Shown one piece after another: positions 5,133 through 64,000 of a stretch of DNA of 64,000 bases. This stretch comes from Desulfatitalea tepidiphila. GTDB lineage: Bacteria > Desulfobacterota > Desulfobacteria > Desulfobacterales > Desulfosarcinaceae. The notes beneath the pieces are model-generated. The model ran no database searches, was not told where the DNA came from, and saw only the letters and a program-made list of their open reading frames with translations. The stretch is taken from positions 310,001-374,000 of the forward strand of contig NZ_BCAG01000006.1 of the NCBI RefSeq assembly GCF_001293685.1, given 5' to 3'. Within the stretch, counting starts at the first letter, position 1. Every line of letters starts with the position of its first letter. The translations under genes were made by a program, and so were the position numbers.

Positions 5133-5182
5133 TCGCGTTCATGAGGTTAACAACAAATCTGCCGTCACGGCCCCACACCATA

Positions 5183-5192
5183 ACAAATTTGT
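5183..5192. promoter_or_regulatory. Palindrome in the sigma54 activator-dinB divergent promoter region
   Basis: ACAAATTTGT is a perfect 10-base palindrome that ends 5 bases before the dinB start codon. It sits in the short gap between two divergent genes and could be an operator or simply AT-rich promoter DNA. It does not resemble a standard LexA box. Confidence 0.3.
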
Positions 5193-5197
5193 AACAA

Positions 5198-6379
5198 ATG
5201 GCAAGCACAACTGTCCTTCATATCGACATGGATGCCTTTTTTGCCTCCGTGGAGCAACTCGATGACCCGGCCTTGCTCGGCCGTTGCGTGGTGGTGGGTG
5301 GTTCGCATCGCGGTGTGGTGGCGGCGGCCAGCTATGAGGCACGCAAATTCGGCATCCATTCGGCCATGCCGATGTTTCAGGCGCTCCGACGATGTCCGCA
5401 CCTGATTGTCGTGCCGCCTCGCCGCAAGCGGTATAGTGAACTTTCACGACACATCATGGATATCCTCCGTTCGTTCAGCCCCCTGGTGGAACCGATTTCC
5501 ATCGATGAGGCCTATATGGATATCGGCGGTTGCCAGAGGCTGCACGGCACGCCGCGGGAAACCGCTTTGGCCATAAAAAACCGAATTCACGGCCAAACCC
5601 GTCTCACCTGCTCGGTGGGTATCGCTCCCAACAAATTCATTGCCAAAATCGCTTCGGACCTGCGCAAGCCCGATGGGCTGACCGAAATCACCCCGGATCA
5701 AGTGGCCTCGTTTATCGACGCGCTGCCCATCGGCAAGGTGCCCGGCGTGGGACACCACGCCCTGCAGATCCTGAACGACTGCGGCATCTACACCCTGGGG
5801 CAGGTGCGCCTGTTTTCCATTGACCAACTGGTCAGACGACTGGGCAAGTTCGGATACCGCCTGGCGGCCCTGGCCAGCGGCCGGGACGACTCACCGGTGA
5901 TTCCCGAAAGCGAGGCCAAATCGATCAGCAGCGAAACGACATTGGCGCAGGACACACGGGACCGCAACACCCTGGCCGGCCATCTGCTGGAACACGCCGA
6001 AAAGGTGGCCCACCAGCTCAGGCGTCATGACATGCGAGCACGCACGGTCACACTGATACTGAAGACGTCCGATTTCAAACGCCATACCCGTAGCCAGACA
6101 CTGGCGCGTCCGGTGCAGGCATCGGAAGCCATCTATCAAACCGCCATCAGCCTGTTGAACGACTTCGTGCTGAGCCAGGATGTACGCCTGATCGGTGTCG
6201 GCACCGGCGGCCTGCAGCCCGCGTCGCAACCTGTGCAGCAATCCCTTTTCCCCGAGAGCCATGGCCATTCAGGCGTTCGATGGGAGAAGGTGGACCGCGC
6301 CATCGACGCCATTGCCGAAAGGTATGGTGAACGAACAATCCGACGGGGTACGCTGGCTGGGGATAAGGGCGAGGATTGA
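5198..6379 (+). CDS. dinB: DNA polymerase IV (Y-family translesion polymerase)
   Basis: This error-prone polymerase bypasses DNA lesions. The 393 residues match the family in length and order. The palm motif HIDMDAFFASVEQ is near the N-terminus and holds the first metal-binding Asp; SIDEAYMDI near residue 105 holds the catalytic Asp-Glu pair. SVGIAPNKFIAKIASDLRKP follows, then a helix-hairpin-helix thumb (GKVPGVG) and the little-finger domain. No clamp-binding motif is obvious, although QQSLFP near the end (residues 347-352) fits the QxxLF beta-clamp consensus loosely. No ribosome site is visible, so the start rests on family alignment. Confidence 0.95.
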   Translation: MASTTVLHIDMDAFFASVEQLDDPALLGRCVVVGGSHRGVVAAASYEARKFGIHSAMPMFQALRRCPHLIVVPPRRKRYSELSRHIMDILRSFSPLVEPISIDEAYMDIGGCQRLHGTPRETALAIKNRIHGQTRLTCSVGIAPNKFIAKIASDLRKPDGLTEITPDQVASFIDALPIGKVPGVGHHALQILNDCGIYTLGQVRLFSIDQLVRRLGKFGYRLAALASGRDDSPVIPESEAKSISSETTLAQDTRDRNTLAGHLLEHAEKVAHQLRRHDMRARTVTLILKTSDFKRHTRSQTLARPVQASEAIYQTAISLLNDFVLSQDVRLIGVGTGGLQPASQPVQQSLFPESHGHSGVRWEKVDRAIDAIAERYGERTIRRGTLAGDKGED

Positions 6380-50746: not shown

Positions 50747-50775
50747 TTGACAGTGCCGTTTCCATCCAGTATTTG
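50747..50775 (+). promoter_or_regulatory. Promoter of the TonB/metal module
   Basis: A perfect TTGACA at 50747-50752 is followed after 17 bases by TATTTG at 50770-50775. The -10 match is partial. Transcription would begin near 50782, producing a leader of about 260 bases before the first gene at 51043. Confidence 0.5.
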
Positions 50776-50833
50776 TGAGGCCGTTCCAAGAGGTGCTACG
50801 AAAGTGCCTGGTTCGTATAACAAAAAAGCAACA

Positions 50834-50920
50834 ATCGGCCGCCCCCCTGGTAAACCAACCTGACTCAAAGGGGATATGCGGCGATAGAATAGCGGCAAAA
50901 GGCATCGCAGGCTTTTTGCC
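50834..50920 (+). ncRNA. Candidate structured 5' leader (riboswitch-like)
   Basis: Two substantial folds are visible. The first pairs ATC-G-GCCGC (50834-50842) with GCGGC-GAT (50878-50885), encloses a CCCC/GGGG helix (50843-50846 with 50870-50873) and a TGG-TAAA-CCA hairpin. The second pairs GGCAAAAGGC (50894-50903) with GCTTTTTGCC (50911-50920), 10 pairs with one wobble, around ATCGCAG. They precede the terminator at 50941-50991. The sequence does not match any riboswitch consensus I know well. Confidence 0.55.
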
Positions 50921-50940
50921 CTGAATACAGAAGGACACCG

Positions 50941-51000
50941 AGGCCGGGAAGGTCGCATTGGGAAGAATCCCAATCGTCGATCTCCCGGCCTTTTTATTTT
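50941..51000 (+). terminator. Intrinsic terminator ahead of the TonB module
   Basis: An outer stem AGGCCGGGA (50941-50949) with TCCCGGCCT (50983-50991) and an inner stem ATTGGGA with TCCCAAT are followed by a long T-rich tract to about 51004. It sits only about 40 bases before the DUF3450 start codon, where it could act as an attenuator. It could also simply end the upstream YkgJ transcript, 270 bases away. Confidence 0.88.
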
Positions 51001-51042
51001 TTTTTGGCCATACCCCGCGATGAGGAGGAAAAAGGAGTATAC

Positions 51043-51820
51043 ATGCGCTCGTCGAAGATCTTAATCTCTTGGATTCTGGCCTTTCTGTTGTGGCTGGGAT
51101 CCCATACGGCAGTGGGGTCCGACGAGGTCACCGAGCGGATCGAAAAACCGGTGCGCAACGCGATCACCACCCGGCAAACCACCCAGGCGGAAGAGGAGCA
51201 GTGGCGGGCCGAACGTGATCAGTTGATGGCCCGATACGAAGCCCTGGAGCAGACCATCGCACAGCTCGAAACCCACCGGACGGCGCTGCAGCAGTCCAAC
51301 CAAGACACCCGCGGGCGCATCGCCGCCAAAGCCCAACAGCTCGCCGATATCGAGCAGATCGGCGCCGGCATCCGCCCCCCTGGTCGAAGAGGTCATCGGC
51401 CAACTGCAGACCTTCGTGGCCTCGGGGCTCCCATTCCTGCGCGCCGAACGCCAGGCGCGCATCGAACGGCTGTCGCAACTGTCCGGTGATCCTGAAGTCG
51501 CGGTCAGCGAAAAATTCCGAAAGGTGATGGAGGCGCTGACGATCGAGGCTGAATACGGCAACACCATCGAAGTCCACCAGGAGACCATCACCGTGGAAGA
51601 TCAGGAGATGCTGGTCCATGTCTTCCGACTGGGACGCATGAGCCTCTTTTTTCAAACCCTGGACCTTCGCAAATGCGGTGCGTTCAACGTGGCGACCTCC
51701 CGCTGGGAACCCCTGCCGCGCGATTACAACGCGGCCATCGAAACCGCCATTGAGATCGGGGCCAAACGGCAGCCCGTCGAACTGCTCAACCTGCCCGTAG
51801 GAAGGATGGCGATCCGATGA
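51043..51820 (+). pseudogene. DUF3450 protein of the TonB2-type system, frameshifted
   Basis: An exported coiled-coil protein of the DUF3450 family, the usual first gene of TonB2/TtpC clusters. AAGGAG precedes the ATG at 51043, and a signal peptide (SWILAFLLWLGSHTAVG) follows. The frame is intact to about residue 106 (LADIEQIGAGI), then shifts at a run of six C residues near 51375-51382. Beyond that, the second frame continues with typical DUF3450 sequence (VASGLPFLRAERQ to LLNLPVGRMAIR). Dropping one C restores a single frame of about 258 residues. It is either a real pseudogene, a sequencing error in the homopolymer, or a slippage-expressed gene. Confidence 0.8.
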
Positions 51821-53265
51821 AACGGACTCCACGATGGCTCACAGGCGCCCTTATGCTGTTCCTCTTGAATCTCCCGGCCGCCCAGGCGGCCGCCCAGGAC
51901 ATGCGTGAAGCGCAGATCCAAGCCCGTGAAACCCGCAAAGCGCTCATCGACCGCGCCGCCGAAGAGCAACGCGCCGCCGAGCAGGCCGCGGCCCGAAGCC
52001 GCGAAAAAATCGGCCAGGACCGTACAGTGCTCAAAAAAGCGCTGGCCGAGCTCGAAGCCCGGCACAAGACGCTCGACCAGGAAGTCGGCCGGCTCAGCGC
52101 TGAAATGGAGCGCCTGACGGCCGAAGAGAAAGACCTCACCCAACGCCTGGCCGAAAGCGACGGCATGGTGCGGGAACTGGTGGGCGTCATCCGAGTCAAC
52201 GCCAAGGACTTGCTGGCCTTGATCGAACAGAACCTGAAGAGCGCGATGATAGACCATGATGTCGCTTTTCTCGCGTCGATTGCCGAGCAGGCGAGATTTC
52301 CAGGCATGGCCGACATCCGCCGAATGATCGCTCTGCTTTTCGAGACGATTCAGGCCAGCGGAGAAGTATCTATCCAAAGCGGCACGATAACCGACCGGAC
52401 CGGCCTGCAGGCCGAGGCCGATATCCTGACCATCGGCAACTTCACTGCGGCCTACAGAATCGAAGACGAGGCGGGTTTTCTGACCTATGCCCCCGCCAGC
52501 CGCAACCTTTATGCGCTTTCGCGTCTGCCTTCCGGGCGAATGCAACGCCAACTGGACGACTACATGGACGGATCGAGCGATGCGGTCCCCATGGACGTCT
52601 CCCGTGGGGGCGCACTGCGTCAATTGACCCATGAATTGAGCCTCTGGCAGCAGATTCCAAAGGGCGGGATCATCGTCTGGCCCATCCTGGCCATTCTGGC
52701 CGTGGGCATCGTGATCGTCATCGAACGGGTGGTTTTCCTGTGGCGCAAACACCTGGACGGCGACCGCCTGATGAACGGCATCGCCGCCCGGGTCGTCGAA
52801 CAGAAATGGGACCTGTGCCATCAGCTGTGCGAAGCCGCCCGCGGGAAACCCATTGCACGGGTCGTCGCCGCCGGCCTGAACTGCCGCAAGATGGCGCGCG
52901 AAGAGATGGAGAACGCGTTGCAGGAGGCGATTCTGCGCGAAATTCCACCCATGGAGCGCTTTTTATCGACCTTAGGCATGCTGGCCGCCATCGCGCCCCT
53001 GCTCGGGCTGCTGGGCACCGTCACGGGCATGATCGACACCTTTCACGTCATCACCCAGCACGGCACCGGCGATCCGCGCATGATGTCCGGCGGCATCTCC
53101 GAAGCCCTGGTGACCACCATGCTGGGACTGACCGTGGCCATCCCCATCATGCTGGCCCACACCCTGCTCAACCGTTCGGTGGATAACCGCATCGGACAGA
53201 TGGAGGAAAAAGCGGTGGCGCTGGTCAATATTGTTCATAAGAATAGGGAGAAAAGAAAAGTCTAA
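51817..53265 (+). CDS. ttpC: TtpC-like long ExbB protein (MotA/TolQ/ExbB family)
   Basis: A 482-residue inner-membrane protein. A signal peptide and an Ala/Glu/Arg-rich coiled coil (about 25-125) come first, then a periplasmic domain up to about 270. The MotA/TolQ/ExbB channel domain follows (IIVWPILAILAVGIVIVIER, then a C-terminal pair of segments with LLGLLGTVTGM). This long form is the TtpC subunit of Vibrio-type TonB2 systems. It overlaps the DUF3450 stop by 4 bases and would help couple the proton gradient to TonB. Confidence 0.88.
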   Translation: MKRTPRWLTGALMLFLLNLPAAQAAAQDMREAQIQARETRKALIDRAAEEQRAAEQAAARSREKIGQDRTVLKKALAELEARHKTLDQEVGRLSAEMERLTAEEKDLTQRLAESDGMVRELVGVIRVNAKDLLALIEQNLKSAMIDHDVAFLASIAEQARFPGMADIRRMIALLFETIQASGEVSIQSGTITDRTGLQAEADILTIGNFTAAYRIEDEAGFLTYAPASRNLYALSRLPSGRMQRQLDDYMDGSSDAVPMDVSRGGALRQLTHELSLWQQIPKGGIIVWPILAILAVGIVIVIERVVFLWRKHLDGDRLMNGIAARVVEQKWDLCHQLCEAARGKPIARVVAAGLNCRKMAREEMENALQEAILREIPPMERFLSTLGMLAAIAPLLGLLGTVTGMIDTFHVITQHGTGDPRMMSGGISEALVTTMLGLTVAIPIMLAHTLLNRSVDNRIGQMEEKAVALVNIVHKNREKRKV

Positions 53266-53337
53266 AGTTTGAAGTGAAGGAAAAATATCGATTTGATTTT
53301 TCGTCGTTGATTGCATCACCCGAATCTCCCAATTGAT

Positions 53338-53380
53338 AGAATTCCTTCACTTAACACTTTAAGCTTTACACTTAAAACTT
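53338..53380 (+). repeat. AT-rich imperfect direct repeat, copy A
   Basis: AGAATTCCTTCACTT at 53338-53352 and the following CACTTTAAGCTTTACACTTAAAACTT match copy B at 54128-54184 in wording and order. Fragments in the opposite orientation lie just upstream (GTCTAAAGTTTGAAGTGAAGG, about 53260-53280). These AT-rich spacers break up an otherwise tightly packed operon. Confidence 0.6.
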
Positions 53381-53388
53381 AATAAAAA

Positions 53389-54000
53389 ATGCTTCAACTA
53401 CTAGAACAAACCTGGTTCCGACTTGAAGCCTACCTGCAGGACGGCGGCGTAGTAATGCTGCCCCTGGTGCTGGTCAGCCTGCTCATGTGGGTCCTGATCA
53501 TGGACCGCATCTTCTTTTTCAGGCGCTTGTACCGCAAGACGATGAGCGCCCGTTCGGCCTGGGAGCATATTCAACAACAGCGTATGCCCGATCCCGGAGA
53601 GTACCGGGGCATCGTATCGCTGCTGGTGGCCGATTTCTTGGAAAACCGCAGCGGCGACCGCATGCTGGATCGTTTCATCCTGGATGAGCGCGTTCAGCAC
53701 ATCAACCGGCGCATGAAAGACTATCTCGCGTTGATCGGCGTGCTGGCCGCCATCGCGCCTCTTTTAGGCCTGCTGGGCACGGTGACCGGCATGATCGCCA
53801 CCTTCGACGTGCTGTCCGTCTTCGGCACCGGCAACGCCAAGGCCATGGCCGGCGGCATCTCCGAGGCCTTGATCACCACCCAGACCGGCCTGCTGGTGGC
53901 CATTCCAGGCCTTTACATGAAGGGTTTTCTCGATCGCCGGGCCGACAACCTGATCCAGCGGGTCAAGACGGTCGGCTACTATTTGCGCCGGCATTTGTAG
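53389..54000 (+). CDS. exbB: ExbB-type proton channel subunit
   Basis: A 203-residue inner-membrane protein of the MotA/TolQ/ExbB family. Three membrane segments lie near residues 20-40, 110-132 and 153-175, with the channel motif LLGLLGTVTGM and the pore Thr in ISEALITTQTGL. No ribosome site is visible before the ATG at 53389, which directly follows an AT-rich repeat; a start at the internal Met23 would lose the first segment. It works with ExbD and TonB. Confidence 0.9.
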   Translation: MLQLLEQTWFRLEAYLQDGGVVMLPLVLVSLLMWVLIMDRIFFFRRLYRKTMSARSAWEHIQQQRMPDPGEYRGIVSLLVADFLENRSGDRMLDRFILDERVQHINRRMKDYLALIGVLAAIAPLLGLLGTVTGMIATFDVLSVFGTGNAKAMAGGISEALITTQTGLLVAIPGLYMKGFLDRRADNLIQRVKTVGYYLRRHL

Positions 54001-54017
54001 GCGTTTGCGATCATCCC

Positions 54018-54038
54018 GGGCGGGACTAAAGCCCGCCC
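54018..54038. repeat. REP-like G/C palindrome, copy 1
   Basis: GGGCGGG at 54018-54024 and CCCGCCC at 54032-54038 with a 7-base spacer (ACTAAAG). A second copy with the same arms is at 61519-61539. Such extragenic palindromes are common, mobile, non-coding repeats. Confidence 0.7.
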
Positions 54039-54127
54039 CACGGGGAGAAGTTGGTAAGCATATAAGTATTCGTCACAATGGGCGGGCGTGACTCAATATG
54101 GAGATCAACGCCGCTCATCAAATCGAC

Positions 54128-54184
54128 AGAATACCTTCACTTTAAACTTAGAATCTTAGACTTAAAACGTTACACTTTAAACTT
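54128..54184 (+). repeat. AT-rich imperfect direct repeat, copy B
   Basis: AGAATACCTTCACTT at 54128-54142 and the following CTTAGACTTAAAACGTTACAC correspond to copy A at 53338-53380. It precedes the ExbD gene. Confidence 0.6.
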
Positions 54185-54210
54185 CTTTTTCATCCCCGAA
54201 GGGGGTCACC

Positions 54211-54636
54211 TTGCTCAACATCACCGCCACCCGCAGAAGCCGCCGCAGCGCTACCGAGCTGAACATCGCGCCGCTCATCGATATGGTATTTATCCTGCTG
54301 ATCTTCTTCCTGGTCACCACCAGCTTCGTCAAGGAGACCGGCATCGAAGTAAGCCGGCCCACTGCCGCCACCGCCGTCAGCCAGTCCAAGGCGACCATCC
54401 TAATCGCCATCGATCCGGCCAACCGCATCTACATGGATCACCGCGAAATCGACGTCCGCGCCGTAAGGGCCAACGTGGAGCGCGCATTGGCCGAAAACCC
54501 CGAAGGCGCCGTGGTGGTCGTGGCCGACCGGGCCAGCAGCACGGGCATGGCCATCGAAGTGATGGACGGGTGCCGCATGGCCGGGGCCAAGAATGTCTCG
54601 CTGGCCGCCAGCCTGCCCGGGGGAAACGCCCCATGA
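54211..54636 (+). CDS. exbD: ExbD/TolR-type energy transducer
   Basis: A 141-residue single-pass protein whose membrane segment carries the essential Asp24 in PLIDMVFILLIFFLVTT. The rest is periplasmic. The start appears to be a TTG at 54211 preceded by GAAGGGGG; no ATG in frame gives the family N-terminus. It overlaps tonB by 4 bases. Confidence 0.9.
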   Translation: MLNITATRRSRRSATELNIAPLIDMVFILLIFFLVTTSFVKETGIEVSRPTAATAVSQSKATILIAIDPANRIYMDHREIDVRAVRANVERALAENPEGAVVVVADRASSTGMAIEVMDGCRMAGAKNVSLAASLPGGNAP

Positions 54637-55316
54637 GCCGTCCGAACGATTATCGCCAGATTCTTCGCCAACGCAACCGCGGCGCCTGGACATGGGCATT
54701 GCTTTCGGCCATGGGGTTGAATCTGGCGCTCTTCATGCTGATGCCCCATCTGCTGCACTCGGCGCCGGCCAAGCCCACGTTCGATACGCTGCTGCCCCAG
54801 ATCCAGGTGGTTCGCCTCAAACGTCCCGAAAGCCCGATTTCGCGTGATGCGCCTCGCCCCCCCGAGGTAAAACGGCAGCAGCCGGCACCGCAACCCGACC
54901 TCAACAGCGCCGCCCTGCAGCGGCCGGTATGGCCGTTCGAAATCAACGCCCGCCTGCCTGGCGGTCCGGACACGATCGCTTTGCCGCCTTTGGAGACCAA
55001 CCTGAAGGCCCTGGGCATCGGCGATCTTTTCGGCGTGGGCGACCTGGACCAGCCCCTGATCACCCTCACGCGCATGCCGCCGATCTACCCCCTGGGCGCC
55101 AAACGCCGGGGCATCGAAGGATCGGTGACGGTGCGCTTCATCGTCAACGAACACGGGTCGGTGGAGAAGACCACCATCATCCATGCCCAGCCGCCCGACA
55201 CCTTCGAAGAGGCGGTGCTGCGCTGTGTTTCCGGATGGCGGTTTCAACCTGGAACGGTGGATGGGCAGCCAGTCCGCGTGTGGGCCGAGACCACCATCCA
55301 CTTCACACTGGATTAA
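54633..55316 (+). CDS. tonB: TonB energy-transducing protein
   Basis: A 227-residue protein linking the ExbB-ExbD motor to outer-membrane receptors. One N-terminal segment (about 18-40) precedes a Pro/Arg-rich periplasmic spacer and the C-terminal TonB domain. In that domain, YPLGAKRRGIEGSVTVRFIV and the final WRFQPGTVDGQPVRVWAE are typical. The ATG at 54633 overlaps the exbD stop. Confidence 0.92.
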   Translation: MSRPNDYRQILRQRNRGAWTWALLSAMGLNLALFMLMPHLLHSAPAKPTFDTLLPQIQVVRLKRPESPISRDAPRPPEVKRQQPAPQPDLNSAALQRPVWPFEINARLPGGPDTIALPPLETNLKALGIGDLFGVGDLDQPLITLTRMPPIYPLGAKRRGIEGSVTVRFIVNEHGSVEKTTIIHAQPPDTFEEAVLRCVSGWRFQPGTVDGQPVRVWAETTIHFTLD

Positions 55317-55320
55317 AGCC

Positions 55321-56685
55321 ATGAAAAGTCTTTGCCAATTTTCAATCCATCCTTTCATCGACCGATGCATCGCAACGGCGCTGGCCGTCATGGTGCTCAT
55401 GACGCTTCCTGGGATGGCCGCTGGAGCCGGACAAGATGCAAAAGAGCTGCCGGCCGCCGTGCGATGGGTGTTCAATGACGTGGGGCGCCTGATCGATCAG
55501 AAAAATTATGATGCCGCGGTCAAACGATTGACCGAATTCCAGGCCAAGGGCGGACCCGAACCGCAAACCGCCGCGGGCGACGATGTCCACCACCACCCCA
55601 TGGTCTATTTCGCGCTGGGCAACTGCCGTCTCTATCAGGAGCGCTACGCCCAGGCCGAAGCCGCATTAGCGCAGGCGGTCCGGCGTCAGCCGGATCTCAC
55701 CGCCGCCTGGCTCAACCTGGCCAAGGCCTGCTACGAGCAGGGCAAACATGCCGCCGCCGCGGACCATTTCCGCGAAGCCTACGACCGCTGCGCCGAAAAA
55801 CAGCCCGAGCACCTCTACTACAGTGCCGCCGCCGATCTTATGGCCCAAAACTACAAGGCGGCCATCGACACCTTCGAACGCCTTTTCGAACGTCATCCCG
55901 GAAAGATCCAGCTGTCCTGGAAATCCCACTGGGTGCACGCCCTGCTGGCCGACGGCCAGGCGAAGCGGGCCTTGCCCCACATCGAAGCGTTGATCGCCGG
56001 ACACACCGGTGAAGAACGCGTCCGCTGGCAGGAAGTTCTTCTCTATCAATATGTTCAGCTCAAGATGACCGCCAAGGCCCGGGGCTATGCCCGCGCTCTC
56101 ACCCGGCAGACCCCCGCCGAGCCGCGCTGGTGGAAGATGTCCGCCCAGCTCGATCTGAGCGATGGCGCCTATGCCGACGCCCTGGCGGCCATGACGATCT
56201 ATGGATACCTTACCCCACTTTCGGAAGAAGAACGGAAACTGTGGGCCGACCTGAGCCTCCAATTGGGCATTCCCGGCCAGGCGGCACCGATTTATGAAAA
56301 GATGCTGGCCGACGCCGACGACGCCAAAGGAATGAAAGAGATGCTGAAAAACCTGGTCACGGCCTACCGCCGCCTGGGGCAGCCCGAAGCCGCCCTGGCC
56401 CAATTGGACCGCGCGCCTGACCTGGGAAAGGACCCGGAACTGCTCATGCTCAGGGCCGACCTGCTCTATGAACAAAAACGGTATGACGAAGCATCAGCGG
56501 CCTACCTGCGTGCGGCCCGCGAAGACCACTCCCGGGCCGGGAACGCATGGCTTATGGCCGGTTATGCCGCGTGGCAGGCCAACGACATCGATACCAGCCG
56601 ACGAGCGTTTACAAAAGCCGCCGACTTTAAACCCCATCGTCAGAGAGCCTTGCTGGCCATGCGACAACTGCAGAAAATCAATTAG
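55321..56685 (+). CDS. TPR protein of the TonB2-type system
   Basis: A 454-residue exported TPR protein. The signal peptide (residues 1-35, ending near MAAGA) is followed by about ten TPR-like repeats up to the C-terminus. Vibrio TonB2 loci also end with a TPR protein that assists transport. It begins 4 bases after the tonB stop, completing the six-gene energising set. Its role is inferred from position. Confidence 0.85.
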   Translation: MKSLCQFSIHPFIDRCIATALAVMVLMTLPGMAAGAGQDAKELPAAVRWVFNDVGRLIDQKNYDAAVKRLTEFQAKGGPEPQTAAGDDVHHHPMVYFALGNCRLYQERYAQAEAALAQAVRRQPDLTAAWLNLAKACYEQGKHAAAADHFREAYDRCAEKQPEHLYYSAAADLMAQNYKAAIDTFERLFERHPGKIQLSWKSHWVHALLADGQAKRALPHIEALIAGHTGEERVRWQEVLLYQYVQLKMTAKARGYARALTRQTPAEPRWWKMSAQLDLSDGAYADALAAMTIYGYLTPLSEEERKLWADLSLQLGIPGQAAPIYEKMLADADDAKGMKEMLKNLVTAYRRLGQPEAALAQLDRAPDLGKDPELLMLRADLLYEQKRYDEASAAYLRAAREDHSRAGNAWLMAGYAAWQANDIDTSRRAFTKAADFKPHRQRALLAMRQLQKIN

Positions 56686-56692
56686 GCAACCA

Positions 56693-57130
56693 ATGAACCT
56701 CACGCTGCACAAACGCATCTGCGTCATCGACGGCCAGGGCGGCGGCATCGGCGCCACCCTGATCAAATATCTGAAAGGCGCCTATGGCGAAACCATCGAA
56801 CTCATCGCCCTGGGCACCAACGCCATCGCCACGGCCCAGATGCTCAAGGCCGGCGCCAACCGGGGCGCCTCCGGGGAGAATGCCATCTGCCACACCGTAC
56901 CCCTGGCAGACTGCATCGTCGGCCCCATCGCCATCACCTGGGCCAACGCCATGCTTGGCGAGGTGACCCCGCGCATGGCCGAAGCCGTCACATCCTGTCC
57001 GGCCCTCAAGATCCTGTTGCCGCTCTCCCAGGAGCGGACCCGGATCGTCGGCATCGTCAGCGAACCGCTGCCCCATTTCGTGCAGCGCCTGGTGGAAAAA
57101 GAGATCAAGGAGGTATGGAACCATGTGTGA
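56693..57130 (+). CDS. DUF3842 family protein
   Basis: A 145-residue cytosolic protein with a Gly-rich Rossmann-like start (RICVIDGQGGGIGATLIKYL), the hallmark of DUF3842. Conserved Cys/His positions appear in ICHTVPLADCIVGP. The family occurs next to CooT-type nickel proteins, as here, where the two overlap by 8 bases. Function is unknown; a nucleotide- or metal-handling role is possible. Confidence 0.85.
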   Translation: MNLTLHKRICVIDGQGGGIGATLIKYLKGAYGETIELIALGTNAIATAQMLKAGANRGASGENAICHTVPLADCIVGPIAITWANAMLGEVTPRMAEAVTSCPALKILLPLSQERTRIVGIVSEPLPHFVQRLVEKEIKEVWNHV

Positions 57131-57320
57131 AGCCAATGTCTATCTGGACCGCAATGGAGCGGAAGAGATGATCCTGGAATCCGTGGATGTGATCGAACCG
57201 CAGGAAAACAACACCTTTCGGATGGTGACGATTTTCGGCGAACAGAAGATCATCCGGGGACGCCTCAAGGGCATGAACCTCGTGGATCACAAGATCGTTT
57301 TCATCCCCGAGGGGGATTAG
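57123..57320 (+). CDS. CooT family nickel-binding protein
   Basis: A 65-residue protein starting MCEANVYLDRNG. Cys2 is the nickel ligand in characterised CooT, which dimerises and binds one Ni(II). The core SVDVIEPQENNTFRMVTIFGE is a small beta-barrel as in the family. It is the clearest pointer to nickel in this module. No carbon monoxide dehydrogenase genes are seen, so its client is open. Confidence 0.85.
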   Translation: MCEANVYLDRNGAEEMILESVDVIEPQENNTFRMVTIFGEQKIIRGRLKGMNLVDHKIVFIPEGD

Positions 57321-57393
57321 ATCTTGACGCCTCACGAATGACCCATTTGCCTGTTTCTCTAGTGGCAACTGAACGGACAGCAGAAAAAAAGGA

Positions 57394-57505
57394 CCGCCGC
57401 CTTCCGGCCAGGGATGCGGCGACGGCCCTTGGGGTGAAACTCCCGGTGACCGGGGGCTTCGACTTGCAAATTTAGCATCGACGAAACCCCGCCGTCAATC
57501 ACGGC
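57394..57505 (+). ncRNA. Candidate structured leader of the TonB receptor
   Basis: A three-way junction can be drawn. The main stem pairs GACGGC (57421-57426) with GCCGTC (57491-57496) and, after a CCTT bulge, GGGGT (57431-57435) with ACCCC (57486-57490). Arm 2 is CCCGG-TGA-CCGGG (57442-57454). Arm 3 is TCGA-CT-TGC with GCA-TCGA around AAATTTA (57459-57481). GCCGT (57491-57495) can pair instead with ACGGC (57501-57505), and GACGGC can pair with the upstream CCGCCGC, so mutually exclusive folds exist. This suggests switching, but no known consensus is matched. Confidence 0.5.
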
Positions 57506-57579
57506 AACACATGAACTCGGGGGCGCCCACCCATCGCATTGAATTGGCAACTGGAACTATGAAAAGGAGGGAACTGGTT

Positions 57580-59679
57580 ATGAAACGGATGGGGTTGGTT
57601 TTATTGGCAGTCGTCGCGGGCGTGCTCATGATTTGCGGCATCGGCGCAGCGGAAACGGAAACACCGGCGGACAATGTGGAGCGCCTCGAGGATTTGGAGG
57701 TCAAGGAAAAGGGCGGGGCGCCGGGGTTGACCACGAGCCCGGGTAAAACCGTCATCGAACTGGACAAGTACGCCACCATGGCACCTCCCGGCAGCATCGT
57801 GGATGTGCTCAAGACCCACGCCATCGTGGATTTCCGGGGGGATTCCGATTTCGACCCCGGGATCGACAGCATCTATGTGCGCGGATTTGACGCCACGCGC
57901 TTCGTCACGGCCATCGACGACCTGACGCTCCTCAAAACCGGAGGCCGCAAGTCCTCCAACATCGTAGATTACGCCACCCTGCCGGCCTTTCTGATTGACA
58001 AGGTCGAAGTGCTGCCCGGGCCCCACTCGGCCCGCTTTGACAGCAAGGCCATCGGCGGGGTTCTCAATTTCGTCACCCGCCAACCCGAGCGCCGGGAGAG
58101 CGCCAAACCCGATCTCAAATTCAGCACCAGCTACGGATCCTATGACAGTTGGAATAACAATGCTTCCATGAGCGGCGCCATCAGCGCGTTCGTCTATGAC
58201 TTCGGCTATCAGTACACCCATACCGATGGCTATCTGCGCAATAGCGAGACGGACAACCAAACGGTGTTCGGACGAGTCGGGGTCGTTTTGCCCGGGAATG
58301 GATTCTTCGCCTTGAGTTCGTCTTATGCCGATACCGACCGCGAGGCGCCGGTCAACAACCCCAGCAGCGACGGCTCGGATTACGATTCGGACTACCCGAG
58401 GACGGACAGCGGGGCCTTCGACCCCTACGCCAAACCGACCTGGGACAGCCGCTCTACCACCTACCGCCTCAACTACGAGCAGTCGTTGCCCATCATCGGC
58501 CGTTTGCAGATCGGGGCCTACAAATCCCACGATTTCCGCGATCGCTCGTACTATGCCAGTACAACGGACACGACACGCAGCGAAATGGAAACCGATTGGT
58601 ATGCGCAAGGCGGCAAAATCCAAGACGATATCCGCTGGTCCGCCAACCATCACACCACGGTGGGGTTTGACATCGCACGACTCTATGACGACGGCATCAA
58701 CGAACACAAGGAAGAACGTATCAAAAAGCGGGGCACCTTCATCGAGCACAAGTGGGGCATCCTGCCTTCCGTGGATATCAGGGCCGGGCTTCGCTATGAG
58801 GATGTGCGCATCTGGGTGACCAACTTCGGCGCCATTCCCAATCGGGAGGATGTCATCAATCGCCGTTGGAACGAGCTGATCCCCAAATCCTTCACCACCT
58901 GGCGCATGGACGGCGTGGCCCCCTGGCTGCGGGACACTGCTCTCTCCCTGGGTGTCAGCAAAATCTGGCGCGCTCCCGATTATCACGGCGACTACAATCC
59001 CCAGGGGCGACCGGCCGGTGCCTGGCTGGAGGACGAACACGGTATCGGTTACGACCTGGTGCTCGACCGCAGGCTCTGGCGGGATATCTCTCTGCAAATC
59101 AACTACGCCTTTTACGACATCAAGGACTACATCGCCAGCAACAGCGCCTATGCCAACTACTCGGGCGCCGGGGCCGGCAACCTGAGATACAGCGACTATA
59201 AAATCAACCTCGAGCGCGTCCACCGGCATGGCGTGGATGTCACTCTCGGCGGCCATATCATAGACGATCTATCCTTCAGCCTGACCTACGCCTGGCAGCA
59301 ATTTTATAACCGGGGGGATGAACCGGCCGGTGAAACCACACTGCATCAACGCGCCGAGAACCGGATTACGGCCAGCCTGCGCTATGCCTTGTTCGAGCGC
59401 ACCACCTTGATGCTGGACTACTACTACCAGGACAAGGAGATCACCGAGGTCTCCGAAGAAATTGCTCCCGATGTGTGGTTTTTCACCGAAGTGGAGAATC
59501 CATCATACAGCGTTTTCGACTTCGGGGTTCAGCAGCAGTTGTTTAAACAGATCGGATTCTTCGAAAACGGCACGGCCAAAGTATGGGTCAAGAACATCTT
59601 CGACGAAGATTACTACAATTCCTCCGGGCATCCGGGTACTGACCGCACCTTTGGTGTCAGCTTTCAATTTGGGATTTAA
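57580..59679 (+). CDS. TonB-dependent outer-membrane receptor
   Basis: A 699-residue outer-membrane channel. The start at 57580 has AAGGAGG 9 bases upstream and is followed by a signal peptide (LVLLAVVAGVLMICGIGAAE). A plug domain reads DSIYVRGFDATRF to GPHSARFDSKAIGGVLNFVTRQP. A 22-strand-type barrel follows, ending FGVSFQFGI. A short acidic segment after the signal (VERLEDLEVKE) may be the TonB box. It should import a scarce, large ligand, here presumed to be a metal chelate or tetrapyrrole. Confidence 0.92.
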   Translation: MKRMGLVLLAVVAGVLMICGIGAAETETPADNVERLEDLEVKEKGGAPGLTTSPGKTVIELDKYATMAPPGSIVDVLKTHAIVDFRGDSDFDPGIDSIYVRGFDATRFVTAIDDLTLLKTGGRKSSNIVDYATLPAFLIDKVEVLPGPHSARFDSKAIGGVLNFVTRQPERRESAKPDLKFSTSYGSYDSWNNNASMSGAISAFVYDFGYQYTHTDGYLRNSETDNQTVFGRVGVVLPGNGFFALSSSYADTDREAPVNNPSSDGSDYDSDYPRTDSGAFDPYAKPTWDSRSTTYRLNYEQSLPIIGRLQIGAYKSHDFRDRSYYASTTDTTRSEMETDWYAQGGKIQDDIRWSANHHTTVGFDIARLYDDGINEHKEERIKKRGTFIEHKWGILPSVDIRAGLRYEDVRIWVTNFGAIPNREDVINRRWNELIPKSFTTWRMDGVAPWLRDTALSLGVSKIWRAPDYHGDYNPQGRPAGAWLEDEHGIGYDLVLDRRLWRDISLQINYAFYDIKDYIASNSAYANYSGAGAGNLRYSDYKINLERVHRHGVDVTLGGHIIDDLSFSLTYAWQQFYNRGDEPAGETTLHQRAENRITASLRYALFERTTLMLDYYYQDKEITEVSEEIAPDVWFFTEVENPSYSVFDFGVQQQLFKQIGFFENGTAKVWVKNIFDEDYYNSSGHPGTDRTFGVSFQFGI

Positions 59680-59760
59680 CATCATCACAATAGCCGCCTG
59701 AAAAGCTCCGATAAAGGGCGACAAAGAGGCATATTTTCCAACCAACAGGAGACAAATTCT

Positions 59761-61434
59761 ATGCACTGCAACAAGTTATGGAAAATCAGGAGTTTTTTAA
59801 TCCTCTTGGCCTTAATATGGGCCGGTATCGCCTGCTGCGCCGGTCCGGCGGCGTCACCCGCCACATCAGGTCATGATGCTTCCGGCAGCTACACCCTCGT
59901 CAGTATCGGCCCCGGCGACGCCGACCTGCTCACCGTGCGCGCCGTGGAGGCCATCCGGCGGGCCGACCTGATCTTCTGCAATCCCAAGACCCGGGAAAAG
60001 CTGGCATCCGTGATCGATTTTACCGGAAAACAGGTGGAAGACGGCTACGGCGTGCTGTTCCGCTTCTATGGCCGGGACTGCCGCCAGGTGCCTGAAGCGG
60101 AGCGCACCTGGCACGGCCGGACCTGCGAAGAATTTCACCGCAAACAGGCGGAATTTATCGTCATGGTGCAGGCCGCCGTCCAATCCGGCCGGCACGTGGT
60201 GTTGCTCAGCAGCGGCGACCCGACCATTTACGGTCCGGACCTGTGGAGCATCAAGGCGCTCAAGGATCTGAACCCCACCGTGATACCCGGCATCAGCTCG
60301 CTCAACGCGGCCAATGCCGTGCTCAAGGCCGGCCTGGGCGAAGTCATCATCACGGCCCCCTTTGACCGCGAAGGCCGCGCGGACACCATCGAACGGCTGG
60401 CCGTCCACGAACGGGCCACCATGGTCATCTTCATGCCCCGGGATATGCCCAAACTGCTCCAACGTCTCGCCGCGGCCTACCCGGCCGACACCCCCGTCGC
60501 CGTGGTCAGCCGGGCCGGTCATGTGGGTCAGGAAAACGCCGTCATGGGCACGGTGGCCGATATCGGCGACCGGTTGAAGGATCAGGACGTGCAACTCTCC
60601 CTGGTCTACGTGGGCAAGGCCCTGGCCCAGGCCCAATTCAATGCCGACGAAACGCCCATGCCGTCCGGAACGGGCAGATTCTACCTGGTGGGCATGGGCC
60701 CGGGGGACGCCGACCTGGCCAGCCTGCGGGCCGTGCGGGTGATCGAAAAGGCGGACCTGATCTTTGCCAGCGACAAGTACCAGAAGCGTTACGCCTCCCT
60801 GCTCAAAGGCAAGAAGGTGCTGGACGGCTATGGCCGGCTGTTTCCCTTCTACGGCAAGGATTGTGCGACGCTCACCCCGGCCGAACGGGCCAATGAGCGC
60901 ATGAGCTGCGAGGCCTACCACCAAAAGCAGGCGGAGTTCGAACGGCTGGTGCGCGACGCCGTGGCCAAGGGCCAGACCGTGGCCATGCTGGATACCGGAG
61001 ACCCCCTGATTTACGGCCCCTGCTCCTGGTCCCTGACCGCCTTGCGCGACCTGCCCACCGAGGTGGTGCCCGGCCTGAGCTGCTTCAACGCCGCCAACGC
61101 GGCCCTGCAGGCCGGGGTGACCCAGGGCAAAAGCAGCCATTCGGTGCTGCTGGCCTCGGGCTGGTCCGTGGATGAAATGGCGGTGCATCAAAGCACCATG
61201 GTGCTCTTCACCATGCGCAAGGAGTTCAAGCATTTCGTCGACGCCTTGTCCAGGCACTATCCAGCGGAAACGCCGGTGGCCATCGTCTCCAAGGCCGGTT
61301 ACGCCCGGGAGGAGCAGGTGACCCGCGGCACCCTGGGCACCATCCTGGCTCAACTGGGCGGGGATAAAATGCCGTTCGAATACCTGCTTTACGTCGGCGA
61401 CTTTCTGGCGGACGGCGGGCGGGTGGCGAATTAG
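59761..61434 (+). CDS. Exported tandem tetrapyrrole-methylase-like protein
   Basis: A 557-residue protein with an N-terminal signal (IRSFLILLALIWAGIACCAG) followed by two homologous TP-methylase domains. Repeat 1 has SIGPGDADL (about 49) and SSGDPTIYGP (about 152). Repeat 2 has GMGPGDADL (about 312) and DTGDPLIYGP (about 411). Each also has GISSLNAANA or GLSCFNAANA. These are the SAM- and substrate-binding motifs of CobM/CbiF-type precorrin methyltransferases. The signal implies an extracytoplasmic location, where SAM is not known to be available, so a binding role is as likely as catalysis. CAGGAG precedes the ATG. Confidence 0.85.
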   Translation: MHCNKLWKIRSFLILLALIWAGIACCAGPAASPATSGHDASGSYTLVSIGPGDADLLTVRAVEAIRRADLIFCNPKTREKLASVIDFTGKQVEDGYGVLFRFYGRDCRQVPEAERTWHGRTCEEFHRKQAEFIVMVQAAVQSGRHVVLLSSGDPTIYGPDLWSIKALKDLNPTVIPGISSLNAANAVLKAGLGEVIITAPFDREGRADTIERLAVHERATMVIFMPRDMPKLLQRLAAAYPADTPVAVVSRAGHVGQENAVMGTVADIGDRLKDQDVQLSLVYVGKALAQAQFNADETPMPSGTGRFYLVGMGPGDADLASLRAVRVIEKADLIFASDKYQKRYASLLKGKKVLDGYGRLFPFYGKDCATLTPAERANERMSCEAYHQKQAEFERLVRDAVAKGQTVAMLDTGDPLIYGPCSWSLTALRDLPTEVVPGLSCFNAANAALQAGVTQGKSSHSVLLASGWSVDEMAVHQSTMVLFTMRKEFKHFVDALSRHYPAETPVAIVSKAGYAREEQVTRGTLGTILAQLGGDKMPFEYLLYVGDFLADGGRVAN

Positions 61435-61464
61435 AAAAATGGAGTATGAAAGCAGGAAAGTCCG

Positions 61465-61539
61465 AAAGTAGGAAAGTTAAAGGTATGCTGTCGATTGGAT
61501 GATTGTCGGATCTCGTAGGGGCGGGTTTTATGCCCGCCC
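61465..61539. repeat. REP-like palindrome, copy 2, in a repeat-rich spacer
   Basis: GGGCGGG (61519-61525) and CCCGCCC (61533-61539) with a 7-base spacer match the arms of the copy at 54018-54038. The spacer before it carries GAAAGTAGGAAAG at about 61468-61480, a 13-base match to the DNA at 16479-16490 after trpB. No gene is seen. Confidence 0.6.
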
Positions 61540-61608
61540 TCGCGGCCGCTAAAGTTTTTGATGTTGTTTTTGATTGTTGCACCCATATAGGAAATTGAAA
61601 GGGGAAAT

Positions 61609-62427
61609 ATGAAAAGATTACTCTCTGGATTCTTGGCGACGACACTTCTACTGCTGCTTTGCGCCGCTGCCCAGGCGCACATGCTCTGGCTCAACCCCAT
61701 GGATTACTATCCGGCGGTGGGATCCACGGTGGACATCGGCATCGGGTGGGGCCACACGTATCCGGCCGAACGCACCGACCAGGAAGTCAAGGCGGACCGG
61801 GTGGAAACCATCGCGGCCATCGATCCCGACGGCCGCAAGGTGCCGCTGGTCCAGGCGGCGGTTGACCGCTATCAATTGAAGATCGAGAAAGCGGGCGCCT
61901 ATGTGGTGACGGCGCGGATCAAGCCCGGCTTTTTCACCATGACGCCCGAAGGTCGTAAATGGGGGGACAAGAAAGCGATCGCCAATGCGGTCAAGTGCAC
62001 CAACTTTCACATCGAGGCCAAGGCGGTCCTGATCGCCGGCGGTGACGCCAGAAACCTCGACGCCGGTTCGGATCAGGCCCTGACGCTGGTTCCCGTGACC
62101 GATCCCAGTGCCGTCAAGGCCGGCGGGACATTTGCAGCGACGGTTCTATATAACAACCAACCCCTGGCCGATGCCCCGGTGAAAGCGGCCTATGCCGGGT
62201 TTGAACCCAAGAAGGACGAGGGCCAAAAGACCTCGAACAAGGGGCACAGCCACTCGGGCGGGCACTACCCTGTGGAAACCCGGACCGATGGCCAGGGCCG
62301 GGTGGAGATCAGCGTGGACCGGCCCGGCTACTGGCTGTTGATCCTCTCCCACAAGCCCGACTACCCAGAAAAAGAAGTTTGCGACGAGTATATGTACAAC
62401 GTGACCTATACCCTGGAAGTGCGGTAG
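61609..62427 (+). CDS. DUF4198 periplasmic metal-related protein
   Basis: A 272-residue exported protein. AAAGGGG precedes the ATG. The signal peptide is cut most simply at AQA-HMLWL, which puts a His at the mature N-terminus, as in copper- or nickel-binding CopC/NikM-like proteins. The rest is beta-rich, in DUF4198 style, and a His-rich loop (NKGHSHSGGHYP, about 204-215) may bind metal. DUF4198 genes commonly accompany Ni/Co uptake systems. It is 8 bases before the APC permease. Confidence 0.85.
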   Translation: MKRLLSGFLATTLLLLLCAAAQAHMLWLNPMDYYPAVGSTVDIGIGWGHTYPAERTDQEVKADRVETIAAIDPDGRKVPLVQAAVDRYQLKIEKAGAYVVTARIKPGFFTMTPEGRKWGDKKAIANAVKCTNFHIEAKAVLIAGGDARNLDAGSDQALTLVPVTDPSAVKAGGTFAATVLYNNQPLADAPVKAAYAGFEPKKDEGQKTSNKGHSHSGGHYPVETRTDGQGRVEISVDRPGYWLLILSHKPDYPEKEVCDEYMYNVTYTLEVR

Positions 62428-62435
62428 CGGCGGCG

Positions 62436-63824
62436 ATGAAAAAACCACTCAACGGCGATGGCCTGCGCCGCGAAATCGGGCTGTTTTCGGCCACGATCCT
62501 GGTGATCGCCAACATGGTGGGCACCGGCATCTTCACCACCTCCGGATTTATCCTGGCGGAAGTGGGGTCTGCCGGTGCCCTGCTGTTGTGCTGGCTGTTC
62601 GGGGGTATCTTCGCCCTATGCGGCGCGCTGTGCTACGGCGAACTGGGTGCCCGCTTTCCCAGGGCCGGGGGCGAGTATGTCTTCCTGACGGAGAGTTTCG
62701 GCCGGCCGGTGGGATTTCTGTCCGGCTGGATCTCCCTGTTCGTCGGCTTTTCAGCGCCCATCGCGGCCGCGGCCATTGCCTTTGCCACTTACAGCTTCCA
62801 GGCGTTGTCCATCCCCGTGGGCGATCCGGTGGTCATTGCCATCGGAGAGTGGCGGATCGTTACGCTCTCCTGGTTGAACGCGATTGCCATCGTGGTGGTG
62901 ATCCTCTTCTCCCTGGTTCATTACCACAGCCTTCACGTGGGCAGTAATATCCAGAACGGCCTGACCATTTTCAAAATCGCCCTGATCGTTGTTTTCATCT
63001 TGGCCGGCGTGCTGTTCGGCAAGGGGTCGGCGACCAACTTCATGGCCGCTTCCACGACATCGCTGTCGGCCGAAAAGTTTGCCGTGGCACTGATCTTCGT
63101 CTCGTTCGCCTACAGCGGATGGAACGCGGCCGCCTACCTGGGGGCCGAGATCGTCCGGCCCCAGCGCAACATCCCCCTGGCCCTGGCTTTAGGGACCGCC
63201 ACGGTCATCGTTGTCTACCTGCTGCTCAATGGCGTTTATCTCTATGCCCTGCCGCCCGGCCAGATGCAGGGCGTGCTCGAGGTCGGCGCCCGTTCGGCGA
63301 CGGCCCTGTTCGGCGCCAACATCAGCCAGCTGTTCAGCGGCGCCGTGGCCCTGGGCATTCTCTCCGTGCTCAGCGCCATGATCATGACCGGCCCGCGGAT
63401 TTACTATGCCATGTCACGGGACGGACTCTTTTTCAGCATATTCGGACGGCTCAACATGGCGCGCAGGACCCCGGCCGCGGCGATCTTCCTGCAAACGGCG
63501 CTGGCCGTCGTCATGGTGCTCACGGCCTCCTTCGAAACCTTGCTGATCTATATCGGCTTTACCCTGGCGCTGTGTGCCATGTTGACGGTCATGGGATTGA
63601 TGCGCATCCGCCGGCGCAATGAGGCGGCGGCACTCGCCTACAGGACTTTCGGATATCCCGTGACACCCTTGATCTTCATCCTGGGAAACGCCTGGATCAT
63701 CTTCTTCTCCCTGAAGAGCCGGCCGGTGGCCGGCCTGGCCGGCCTGGCCACCATCGCGGCCGGGCTGGCCGTCTATCATTTTTTCCAGCGCTCAAACCCG
63801 GCGAAACCGGAAAGGAATACCTGA
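62436..63824 (+). CDS. APC-superfamily amino acid permease
   Basis: A 462-residue inner-membrane transporter with about 12 segments. The N-terminus has the APC unwound-helix motif MVGTGIFTTSGFIL (about 26-39), followed by GGIFALCGALCYGELGARFP. Most members move amino acids; its place in a metal module raises the idea of importing a metal-chelating amino acid such as histidine, which is speculative. It is 1 base away from the next gene. Confidence 0.88.
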   Translation: MKKPLNGDGLRREIGLFSATILVIANMVGTGIFTTSGFILAEVGSAGALLLCWLFGGIFALCGALCYGELGARFPRAGGEYVFLTESFGRPVGFLSGWISLFVGFSAPIAAAAIAFATYSFQALSIPVGDPVVIAIGEWRIVTLSWLNAIAIVVVILFSLVHYHSLHVGSNIQNGLTIFKIALIVVFILAGVLFGKGSATNFMAASTTSLSAEKFAVALIFVSFAYSGWNAAAYLGAEIVRPQRNIPLALALGTATVIVVYLLLNGVYLYALPPGQMQGVLEVGARSATALFGANISQLFSGAVALGILSVLSAMIMTGPRIYYAMSRDGLFFSIFGRLNMARRTPAAAIFLQTALAVVMVLTASFETLLIYIGFTLALCAMLTVMGLMRIRRRNEAAALAYRTFGYPVTPLIFILGNAWIIFFSLKSRPVAGLAGLATIAAGLAVYHFFQRSNPAKPERNT

Positions 63825-63825
63825 T

Positions 63826-64000
63826 ATGCGTGTTTGGACCATCGTAACCGTTCTGTTGTCGACCCTGATCTGGGCCCTGCCTGCCTGGTGCCACGGCGTG
63901 GAGGGACACATTACGCCGGCCCAGGGATATCGGGTCACGGCCATGTACGATGACGGCGAGCCCATGAGCTACGCTGCCGTGGAGATCAAGGGCCCGGATG
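63826..64000 (+). CDS. Partial exported protein, metal-module neighbour
   Basis: The first 58 residues of a gene cut by the window edge. GGAAAGG precedes the ATG. A signal peptide (VWTIVTVLLSTLIWALPAWC) is followed by HGVEGHITPAQGYRVTAMYD, so His could again be the mature N-terminus. The pattern TAMYDDGEPMSYAAVEIKGPD resembles beta-sandwich proteins found beside CbiM-type cobalt/nickel transporters. It fits the module; the full identity needs the next sequence. Confidence 0.75.
   Translation, partial: MRVWTIVTVLLSTLIWALPAWCHGVEGHITPAQGYRVTAMYDDGEPMSYAAVEIKGPD

Follow-up and report, generated by a model that had tools for sequence, protein, structure and literature searches.

Several parts of bacterial nickel uptake have been described. 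A DUF4198 protein of Ideonella binds nickel with a Kd of 18 nM through its N-terminal histidine and His18, and TonB receptors and NikR are named as its neighbours (PMC12537917), while NikK and NikL were described with the nickel energy-coupling factor (ECF) system NikKMLQO by the authors from whom the NikR box consensus comes (PMC545781). Selenoprotein TonB receptors make up families NF049944-NF049947, for which the available parts of the reports give no cargo (PMC12013277, PMC13188914), and the two-hairpin antitermination leaders of the ANTAR type have A-N-N-G hexaloops and, in eut genes, linkers of 5-12 nt (PMC3369931). Uptake of nickel and cobalt across the outer membrane is poorly known, above all in anaerobes living on nickel and corrinoid enzymes. 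The window analysed here is a 64,000-base stretch (bases 310001-374000 of contig NZ_BCAG01000006.1) of the 5.6-Mb genome of Desulfatitalea tepidiphila, and from position 50747 to its end it carries a block comprising a putative leader RNA, a TonB motor, a TonB receptor, an exported protein with two tetrapyrrole methylase (TP-methylase) folds that we call TPM, NikK (DUF4198), an APC permease and a NikL-like protein. A first-pass annotation had proposed these genes as one machine for acquiring nickel, cobalt or a metallo-tetrapyrrole, and Pfam profiles confirmed the named genes on the forward strand, in the order claimed. We put the probability that the block is a TonB-dependent nickel/cobalt acquisition module at about 0.78.

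Recurrence around TPM (59761..61434) carries much of this reading. A search of 194 genomes of the order for TPM gave matches at E ≤ 1e-20 in 27, with the full tandem protein in 7, the window's own genome included. Manual counting over 20 stretches from 18 of the 27 genomes found a receptor in 17, the APC permease (62379..63824, start probably near 62436; PF13520, AA_permease_2) in 15, NikK in 13 and NikL in 10, in varying gene order, with the TonB set, DUF3842 and CooT present in some. One TPM scan over 84,980 species genomes returned 88 relatives, kept as 79 distinct loci (L numbers below), from Desulfobacterota, Planctomycetota, beta- and gammaproteobacteria and others; the neighbours were receptor, NikK, APC and NikL in Desulfobacterota and the beta- and gammaproteobacteria, and NikK in Planctomycetota. 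Signal peptides were classed by hydropathy alone, with no trained predictor, giving 81 classifiable TPM open reading frames (ORFs), 68 with a signal and 13 without, and 16 more left unclassed. A receptor, APC, NikK or NikL gene lay within 6 kb of 58 of the 68 signal-bearing TPMs (receptor 48, APC 36, NikK 31, NikL 19, CooT 8, DUF3842 5) and of 3 of the 13 without a signal; contig ends truncate two of these 3. TPM export goes with module membership.

Controls gave the same picture, as 14 genes from the window's flanks occurred in 0-2 of 77 loci from named genomes and single-sequence tests over these 77 loci detected the receptor in 25, APC in 36, NikK in 21 and NikL in 16. When the search was reversed, 24 close APC matches were present in 22 of the 194 genomes of the order, of which 18 lay within 3 kb of a TPM and 1 about 19 kb away, and the overlap between APC- and TPM-bearing genomes was 17 against 3.1 expected (P = 1.6e-13). 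The gene array is real and recurrent beyond chance. Rarity of the receptor-methylase pair, named beforehand as a possible refutation, was not observed, the pair occurring at the 48 of 68 signal-bearing TPMs counted above. The conserved nickel/cobalt machine of the first-pass annotation was supported by this recurrence and its controls and by the NikR boxes, riboswitches and locus L040 treated below, whereas CooT fell away as a defining part: it occurs in 167 of the 194 genomes, against 27 with TPM, and is thus no module marker, and it is near only 8 of the 68 TPMs.

TPM itself matches PF00590 over two stretches (277 bits against a cut-off of 27.8) and falls short of the cobM/cbiF equivalog TIGR01465 (197 against 259.65 bits); its signal peptide was read by eye. 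Both halves fold as TP-methylases in a model with a mean predicted local distance difference test score (pLDDT) of 87, with CysG and CobM/CbiF as best matches (template modelling score 0.80 by target length to 4e16 and 3ndc, and CysG bound to Co-sirohydrochlorin, 6p5z, among the best), and the GPGD and GDPxxYG motifs are kept. All 19 tandem sequences have in each half two cysteines 15 residues apart (C-x14-C), with a histidine after them in 16 of 19 and 18 of 19 for the two halves, which suggests a disulphide or a metal site. A single tree sets the exported TPMs apart from the genome's own TP-methylases (support 0.75 to 0.96) and places cytosolic relatives within the exported group. Such signal-less relatives (L122, L123, L116 and others) come from beta- and gammaproteobacteria and are nested inside the exported clade. 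Because S-adenosylmethionine (SAM) would not be expected in the periplasm, TPM is probably a binding or carrier protein. The closest named record found is from Desulfatitalea sp. UBA4791, with 96% in the second TPM domain.

The receptor (57511..59679), a plug and barrel protein by Pfam, is a relative of the FCYXU selenoprotein type, matching NF049945 over its full length with 726 bits, under the cut-off of 825, and it has DYHGDYN at the motif site with no Cys or selenocysteine. Selenocysteine in the window receptor was ruled out, its frame holding no UGA. Receptors of other loci (L036, L037, L042, L045, L052, L053, L065, L073, L086, L089, L091 and L092) have one or two in-frame UGAs in a single loop that aligns to residues 490-496 (DYHGDYN) of the window receptor. 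In YCQI-UGA, FCEV-UGA, ATCEV-UGA and similar motifs, the UGA stands opposite N496 and the Cys opposite G493, while LPCP-UGA-D and MP-UGA-I-UGA-D fall opposite a gap at 490; L089 has YCEVC. These resemble the FCYXU, PCPU and PUIUD types, a comparison made by motif and not by model scan. The receptor model (mean pLDDT 76, low in the loop) puts the site between strands 476-487 and 509-523, and the alternation of short and long turns would place the loop outside the cell, where we infer a metal site that varies between His/Asp, Cys and selenocysteine.

NikK (61609..62427) matches PF10670 and, by eye, has a histidine after its signal-like stretch, with a predicted mature N-terminus of HMLW, as in the nickel-binding DUF4198 protein. 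The same histidine was seen by eye in 33 of 35 NikK proteins from the named loci, of which a strict pattern caught 20. A NikK-like frame at L040 2715-3464 has an in-frame UGA opposite a Trp. The gene at 63826, given earlier as an exported partial gene, is NikL-like and runs past the window end (63826..64000 inside it) to about 64299; with 50.3 bits against the NF058648 cut-off of 100 it is a relative and not a member by that cut-off.

Evidence on the metal came from the relatives. Twelve TPM-bearing planctomycete genomes (84 Mb) were searched for NikR boxes, and eight exact GTRTTAC-N13-GTAAYAC boxes, a degenerate form chosen after hits were seen, were present in 6 of the 12, with 0 for the reversed pattern. 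A NikR gene (PF08753) was found in 10 of the 12, including all 6 with boxes. The boxes stand ahead of four TPM operons, two DUF4198-CbiM pairs, one DUF4198 gene on a short contig and one DUF1559 gene; the TPM ORF begins about 1 kb from the box in L074 and L075, about 30 bases in L083 and about 110 bases in L085, and in L074 a DUF1559 gene lies between. The published form, GTGTTAC-N13-GTAACAC, is exact in L083, before TPM, and in L147, before DUF4198-CbiM. With at most one mismatch there were 16 convergent boxes in 1.87 Mb (some places counted twice) against 0 in one shuffle. Divergent boxes at that threshold were left unused (7 against 2 in the shuffle), and a scan with up to three mismatches was dropped because its hit rate did not exceed that of shuffled sequence (297 per 2.47 Mb). 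In Desulfobacterota, a cobalamin riboswitch stands directly 5′ of the receptor/TPM operons of L049, which has the DUF3450-to-APC run, L071 and L072, and riboswitches in L036 and L100 lead other genes. In L040 the genes for receptor, TPM, NikK, APC, NikL, CbiM, CbiQ and an ATP-binding cassette (ABC) ATPase are contiguous, so that the CbiM-CbiQ-ATPase set that marks a NikMQO/NikKMLQO locus was found there and not in the window. Nickel/cobalt as the metal of the module, an identity drawn from relatives, is well supported because of the NikR boxes, the cobalamin riboswitches, the L040 CbiM-CbiQ-ATPase genes and the nickel-binding DUF4198 protein.

A number of observations weigh against this reading of the window block. 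No NikR (PF08753) was found in the window's genome, and the window has no NikR box at up to one mismatch and no cobalamin riboswitch (RF00174) in an Rfam scan; the window copy thus gives no sign of metal control by NikR or a cobalamin riboswitch, and it may serve nickel, cobalt or both. Among the 36 TPM loci scanned with Rfam, which include five without a signal peptide, 5 (4 genomes) had a cobalamin riboswitch and only 3 of these lead receptor/TPM genes. The genome's single CbiM, at C3:2158829, is about 14 kb from its corrin methylases and does not adjoin the module, and it may serve cobalt. The second NikK histidine ligand was read from a GWGH pattern, unaligned to the solved protein, and its spacing of 26 differs from His18. 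Five APC copies had no TPM in the stretch examined, and ten full-length TPM relatives had neither signal peptide nor module neighbours (two on contigs under 7 kb). The leader RNA lacks specificity for nickel or cobalt, since it stands before FecCD permeases and other receptors as well.

Two other explanations bear on the same genes. The receptor might import a nickel or cobalt tetrapyrrole, such as released F430 or a corrinoid, with TPM binding the macrocycle in the cleft where ancestral forms bound precorrins. The fold and retained motifs of each TPM half and the riboswitches leading three receptor/TPM operons would suit such scavenging, as would a riboswitch-led chelatase-like gene about 3 kb from TPM in L100 and a 282-amino-acid CbiK ORF near the second receptor of L054. 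However, apart from L054/L055, CbiK was found in 0 of 77 loci; the families recurring in at least two of the 20 stretches from the order include neither a chelatase nor a BtuCD type (this clustering covered those stretches and not the named loci); TPM misses the equivalog cut-off; and APC and NikK fit small chelates or free metal. The tetrapyrrole part of the first-pass annotation would draw only on the TP-methylase fold, and we regard tetrapyrrole scavenging as unlikely.

The block could instead be a general metallophore cluster for iron, with NikK, NikL and CooT as passengers. Heme and ferric siderophore importers are the best solved relatives of the receptor profile, although BtuB, CntO and OprC are also listed, and FecCD operons share the leader RNA; TPM operons led by NikR boxes or cobalamin riboswitches, the recurrence of NikK and NikL near TPMs and the contiguous CbiM-CbiQ-ATPase genes of L040 argue the other way, and we consider iron uptake very improbable.

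For nickel/cobalt acquisition, we computed a conserved association, an export signal, metal-responsive regulation in relatives and a CbiM-CbiQ-ATPase link in one relative. The path set out here is our proposal as to how the steps follow one another, what TPM and APC do, what the ligand is and whether this copy uses nickel, cobalt or both. The TtpC-ExbB-ExbD-TonB motor would energise the receptor, which would import a nickel or cobalt chelate with the aid of its loop, in which the window receptor carries His/Asp and its relatives Cys/selenocysteine. Periplasmic TPM, which presumably cannot reach SAM there, might hold the chelate or strip it of its metal. The metal could then be handed to NikK and NikL, for both of which an N-terminal histidine is predicted, and enter through a NikM-type ECF transporter; one CbiM homologue lies elsewhere in the genome. 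Transport of the organic ligand may fall to the APC permease, and CooT, perhaps with DUF3842, would handle nickel inside the cell.

The block appears to open with a leader, predicted from a sigma-70-like promoter read by eye (TTGACA-N17-TATTTG, 50747..50775), a small hairpin P1 (GGTGCT-ACGAA-AGTGCC, 50792..50808) and a terminator hairpin P2 (50942..50996) with the 5′ arm GCC-NN-GAAGG; TTGACA-type boxes, again read by eye, also stand 5′ of the hairpins in many other leaders. The putative P2 terminator stem covaries, the NN pairs in 57 pattern matches being AC/GT in 26, AG/CT in 10, GG/CC in 4, AA/TT in 4, AT/AT in 3 and GT/AC and GC/GC in 1 each, with three less regular and five unparsed. Over the collected loci the strict P2 pattern was found at 11 distinct loci, each time 5′ of module genes and on their strand; in 8 it immediately precedes the first recognised gene, and in L045, L070 and L102 it lies 2.0-2.4 kb ahead of that gene. 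A covariance model, R1, built from 10 of those loci matched 121 of the order's 194 genomes at E ≤ 0.01; low-scoring matches may be plain terminators, but in the outgroup just 1 of 17 genomes matched. Taking the best place in each of the 30 best R1 genomes (7 of them model sequences), the next gene encoded DUF3450 in 5, DUF3842 in 1, a TonB receptor in 9, a FecCD permease in 6 (one 566 bases off), SBP_bac_5 in 1, a DUF6802-like protein in 3 (one over the cut-off, one below and one by eye), a weak porin match in 1 and an unassigned product in 4. Of 52 leaders, 35 had a P1 hairpin with an NGAA loop near the promoter, while control 150-mers gave 100 of 2600 when shuffled and 141 of 2600 when random (4-5%); the frequency in leaders is optimistic since the hairpin was noticed in the same set as counted. 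The leader RNA lies at window positions 50747-50996 and in loci L162-L191, before TonB receptor, FecCD and TonB-motor operons of the order. Rfam scans of the leader, in the window and relatives, gave no match over threshold; a known riboswitch was rejected for the window leader on sub-threshold scores (drz-agam-1, 17 of 37 bits; mir-1252, 33 of 70), as was an ANTAR leader, the P1 loops ending in GAA, the linker being long and the A1/G4 hexaloops lacking. The 321-nt leader of the window alone does not fold strikingly (z -1.7). The RNA probably serves as a general attenuator for uptake operons.

The leader is followed by DUF3450 (51043..51820), with its frame broken near 51400 into ORFs 51004-51489 and 51416-51820, each matching PF11932; the split is best read as a sequence error or a recent mutation because the near relative L054 keeps DUF3450 as one ORF of 260 amino acids. 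The frame break (51400-51489) adjoins a C-rich run. An exported protein with a DUF3450-like coil (PF11932, below cut-off) and an ExbB domain (PF01618, MotA_ExbB) follows at 51817..53265 and is TtpC-like, then ExbB (53389..54000; PF01618), ExbD (54211..54636; PF02472), TonB (54618..55316, start uncertain by about 15 bases; PF03544, TonB_C) and a tetratricopeptide repeat (TPR) protein (55324..56685; TPR families). This order appears to match that of the Vibrio TonB2 cluster. DUF3842 (56711..57130; PF12953) and CooT (57123..57320; PF10133, 79.9 against 27 bits; PDB 6fan) complete the run before the receptor. The many overlaps reported earlier come down to three (DUF3450/TtpC, ExbD/TonB and DUF3842/CooT), and gaps of about 80-210 bases stand before the ExbB, ExbD, receptor, TPM and DUF4198 genes, so that a single transcript is only a possibility. 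On the 3′ side of the NikL-like gene lies a fused major facilitator superfamily (MFS)/spermidine synthase gene with a TPR tail (L003 858-4226), of a kind found near 7 of the 68 signal-bearing TPMs, whose product could make or export a ligand. Also downstream of the block, the reverse strand of L003 at 5175-5630 encodes the C-terminal half of a CbiK cobaltochelatase. An exported inosine-uridine nucleoside hydrolase fused to FmdE lies inside the module of L052 (5201-6697), with a relative at L042 12912-14411.

The module offers a likely cargo for TonB receptor families so far defined by selenocysteine alone, the exported TPM would be a new part, and the leader may be a regulatory RNA shared across a whole order. 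A wider synthesis, which we offer tentatively and hold doubtful as a whole, is that a B12-pathway methyltransferase fold has become a periplasmic receiver, in several phyla, of a metallo-tetrapyrrole or metallophore for nickel or cobalt taken in by receptors with selenocysteine, Cys or His loops, and that in Desulfobacterota an undescribed leader RNA of two hairpins switches these operons and others for uptake. Our literature search, a weak probe of absence from print, found no paper on the combination of a TP-methylase with TonB.

Compared with known systems, the leader is like the ANTAR leaders in having a small hairpin and then a terminator, but 48-150 nt separate the starts of P1 and P2, against the 5-12 nt linkers of eut genes (PMC3369931). 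With NikKMLQO the module shares NikK and NikL, its relatives share NikR control and L040 shares the contiguous CbiM-CbiQ-ATPase genes, whereas NikKMLQO, as far as the available part of its description goes, is without receptor, TonB motor, TPM or APC (PMC545781), and in the window CbiM does not adjoin. The window NikK shares with the Ideonella DUF4198 protein its Pfam family, a predicted N-terminal histidine and the WGH histidine; the available part of that paper names no TP-methylase, APC permease or selenoprotein receptor (PMC12537917). Full-length similarity to NF049945 links the window receptor to the selenoprotein TonB receptors, and other receptors of the module share the UGA loop, but where those families carry a Cys/selenocysteine motif the window receptor has DYHGDYN instead. 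TPM, finally, shares its fold and two sequence motifs with the CobM/CbiF precorrin-4 methyltransferases and, unlike them, is exported, tandem and set apart in the tree, with a C-x14-C pair in each half.

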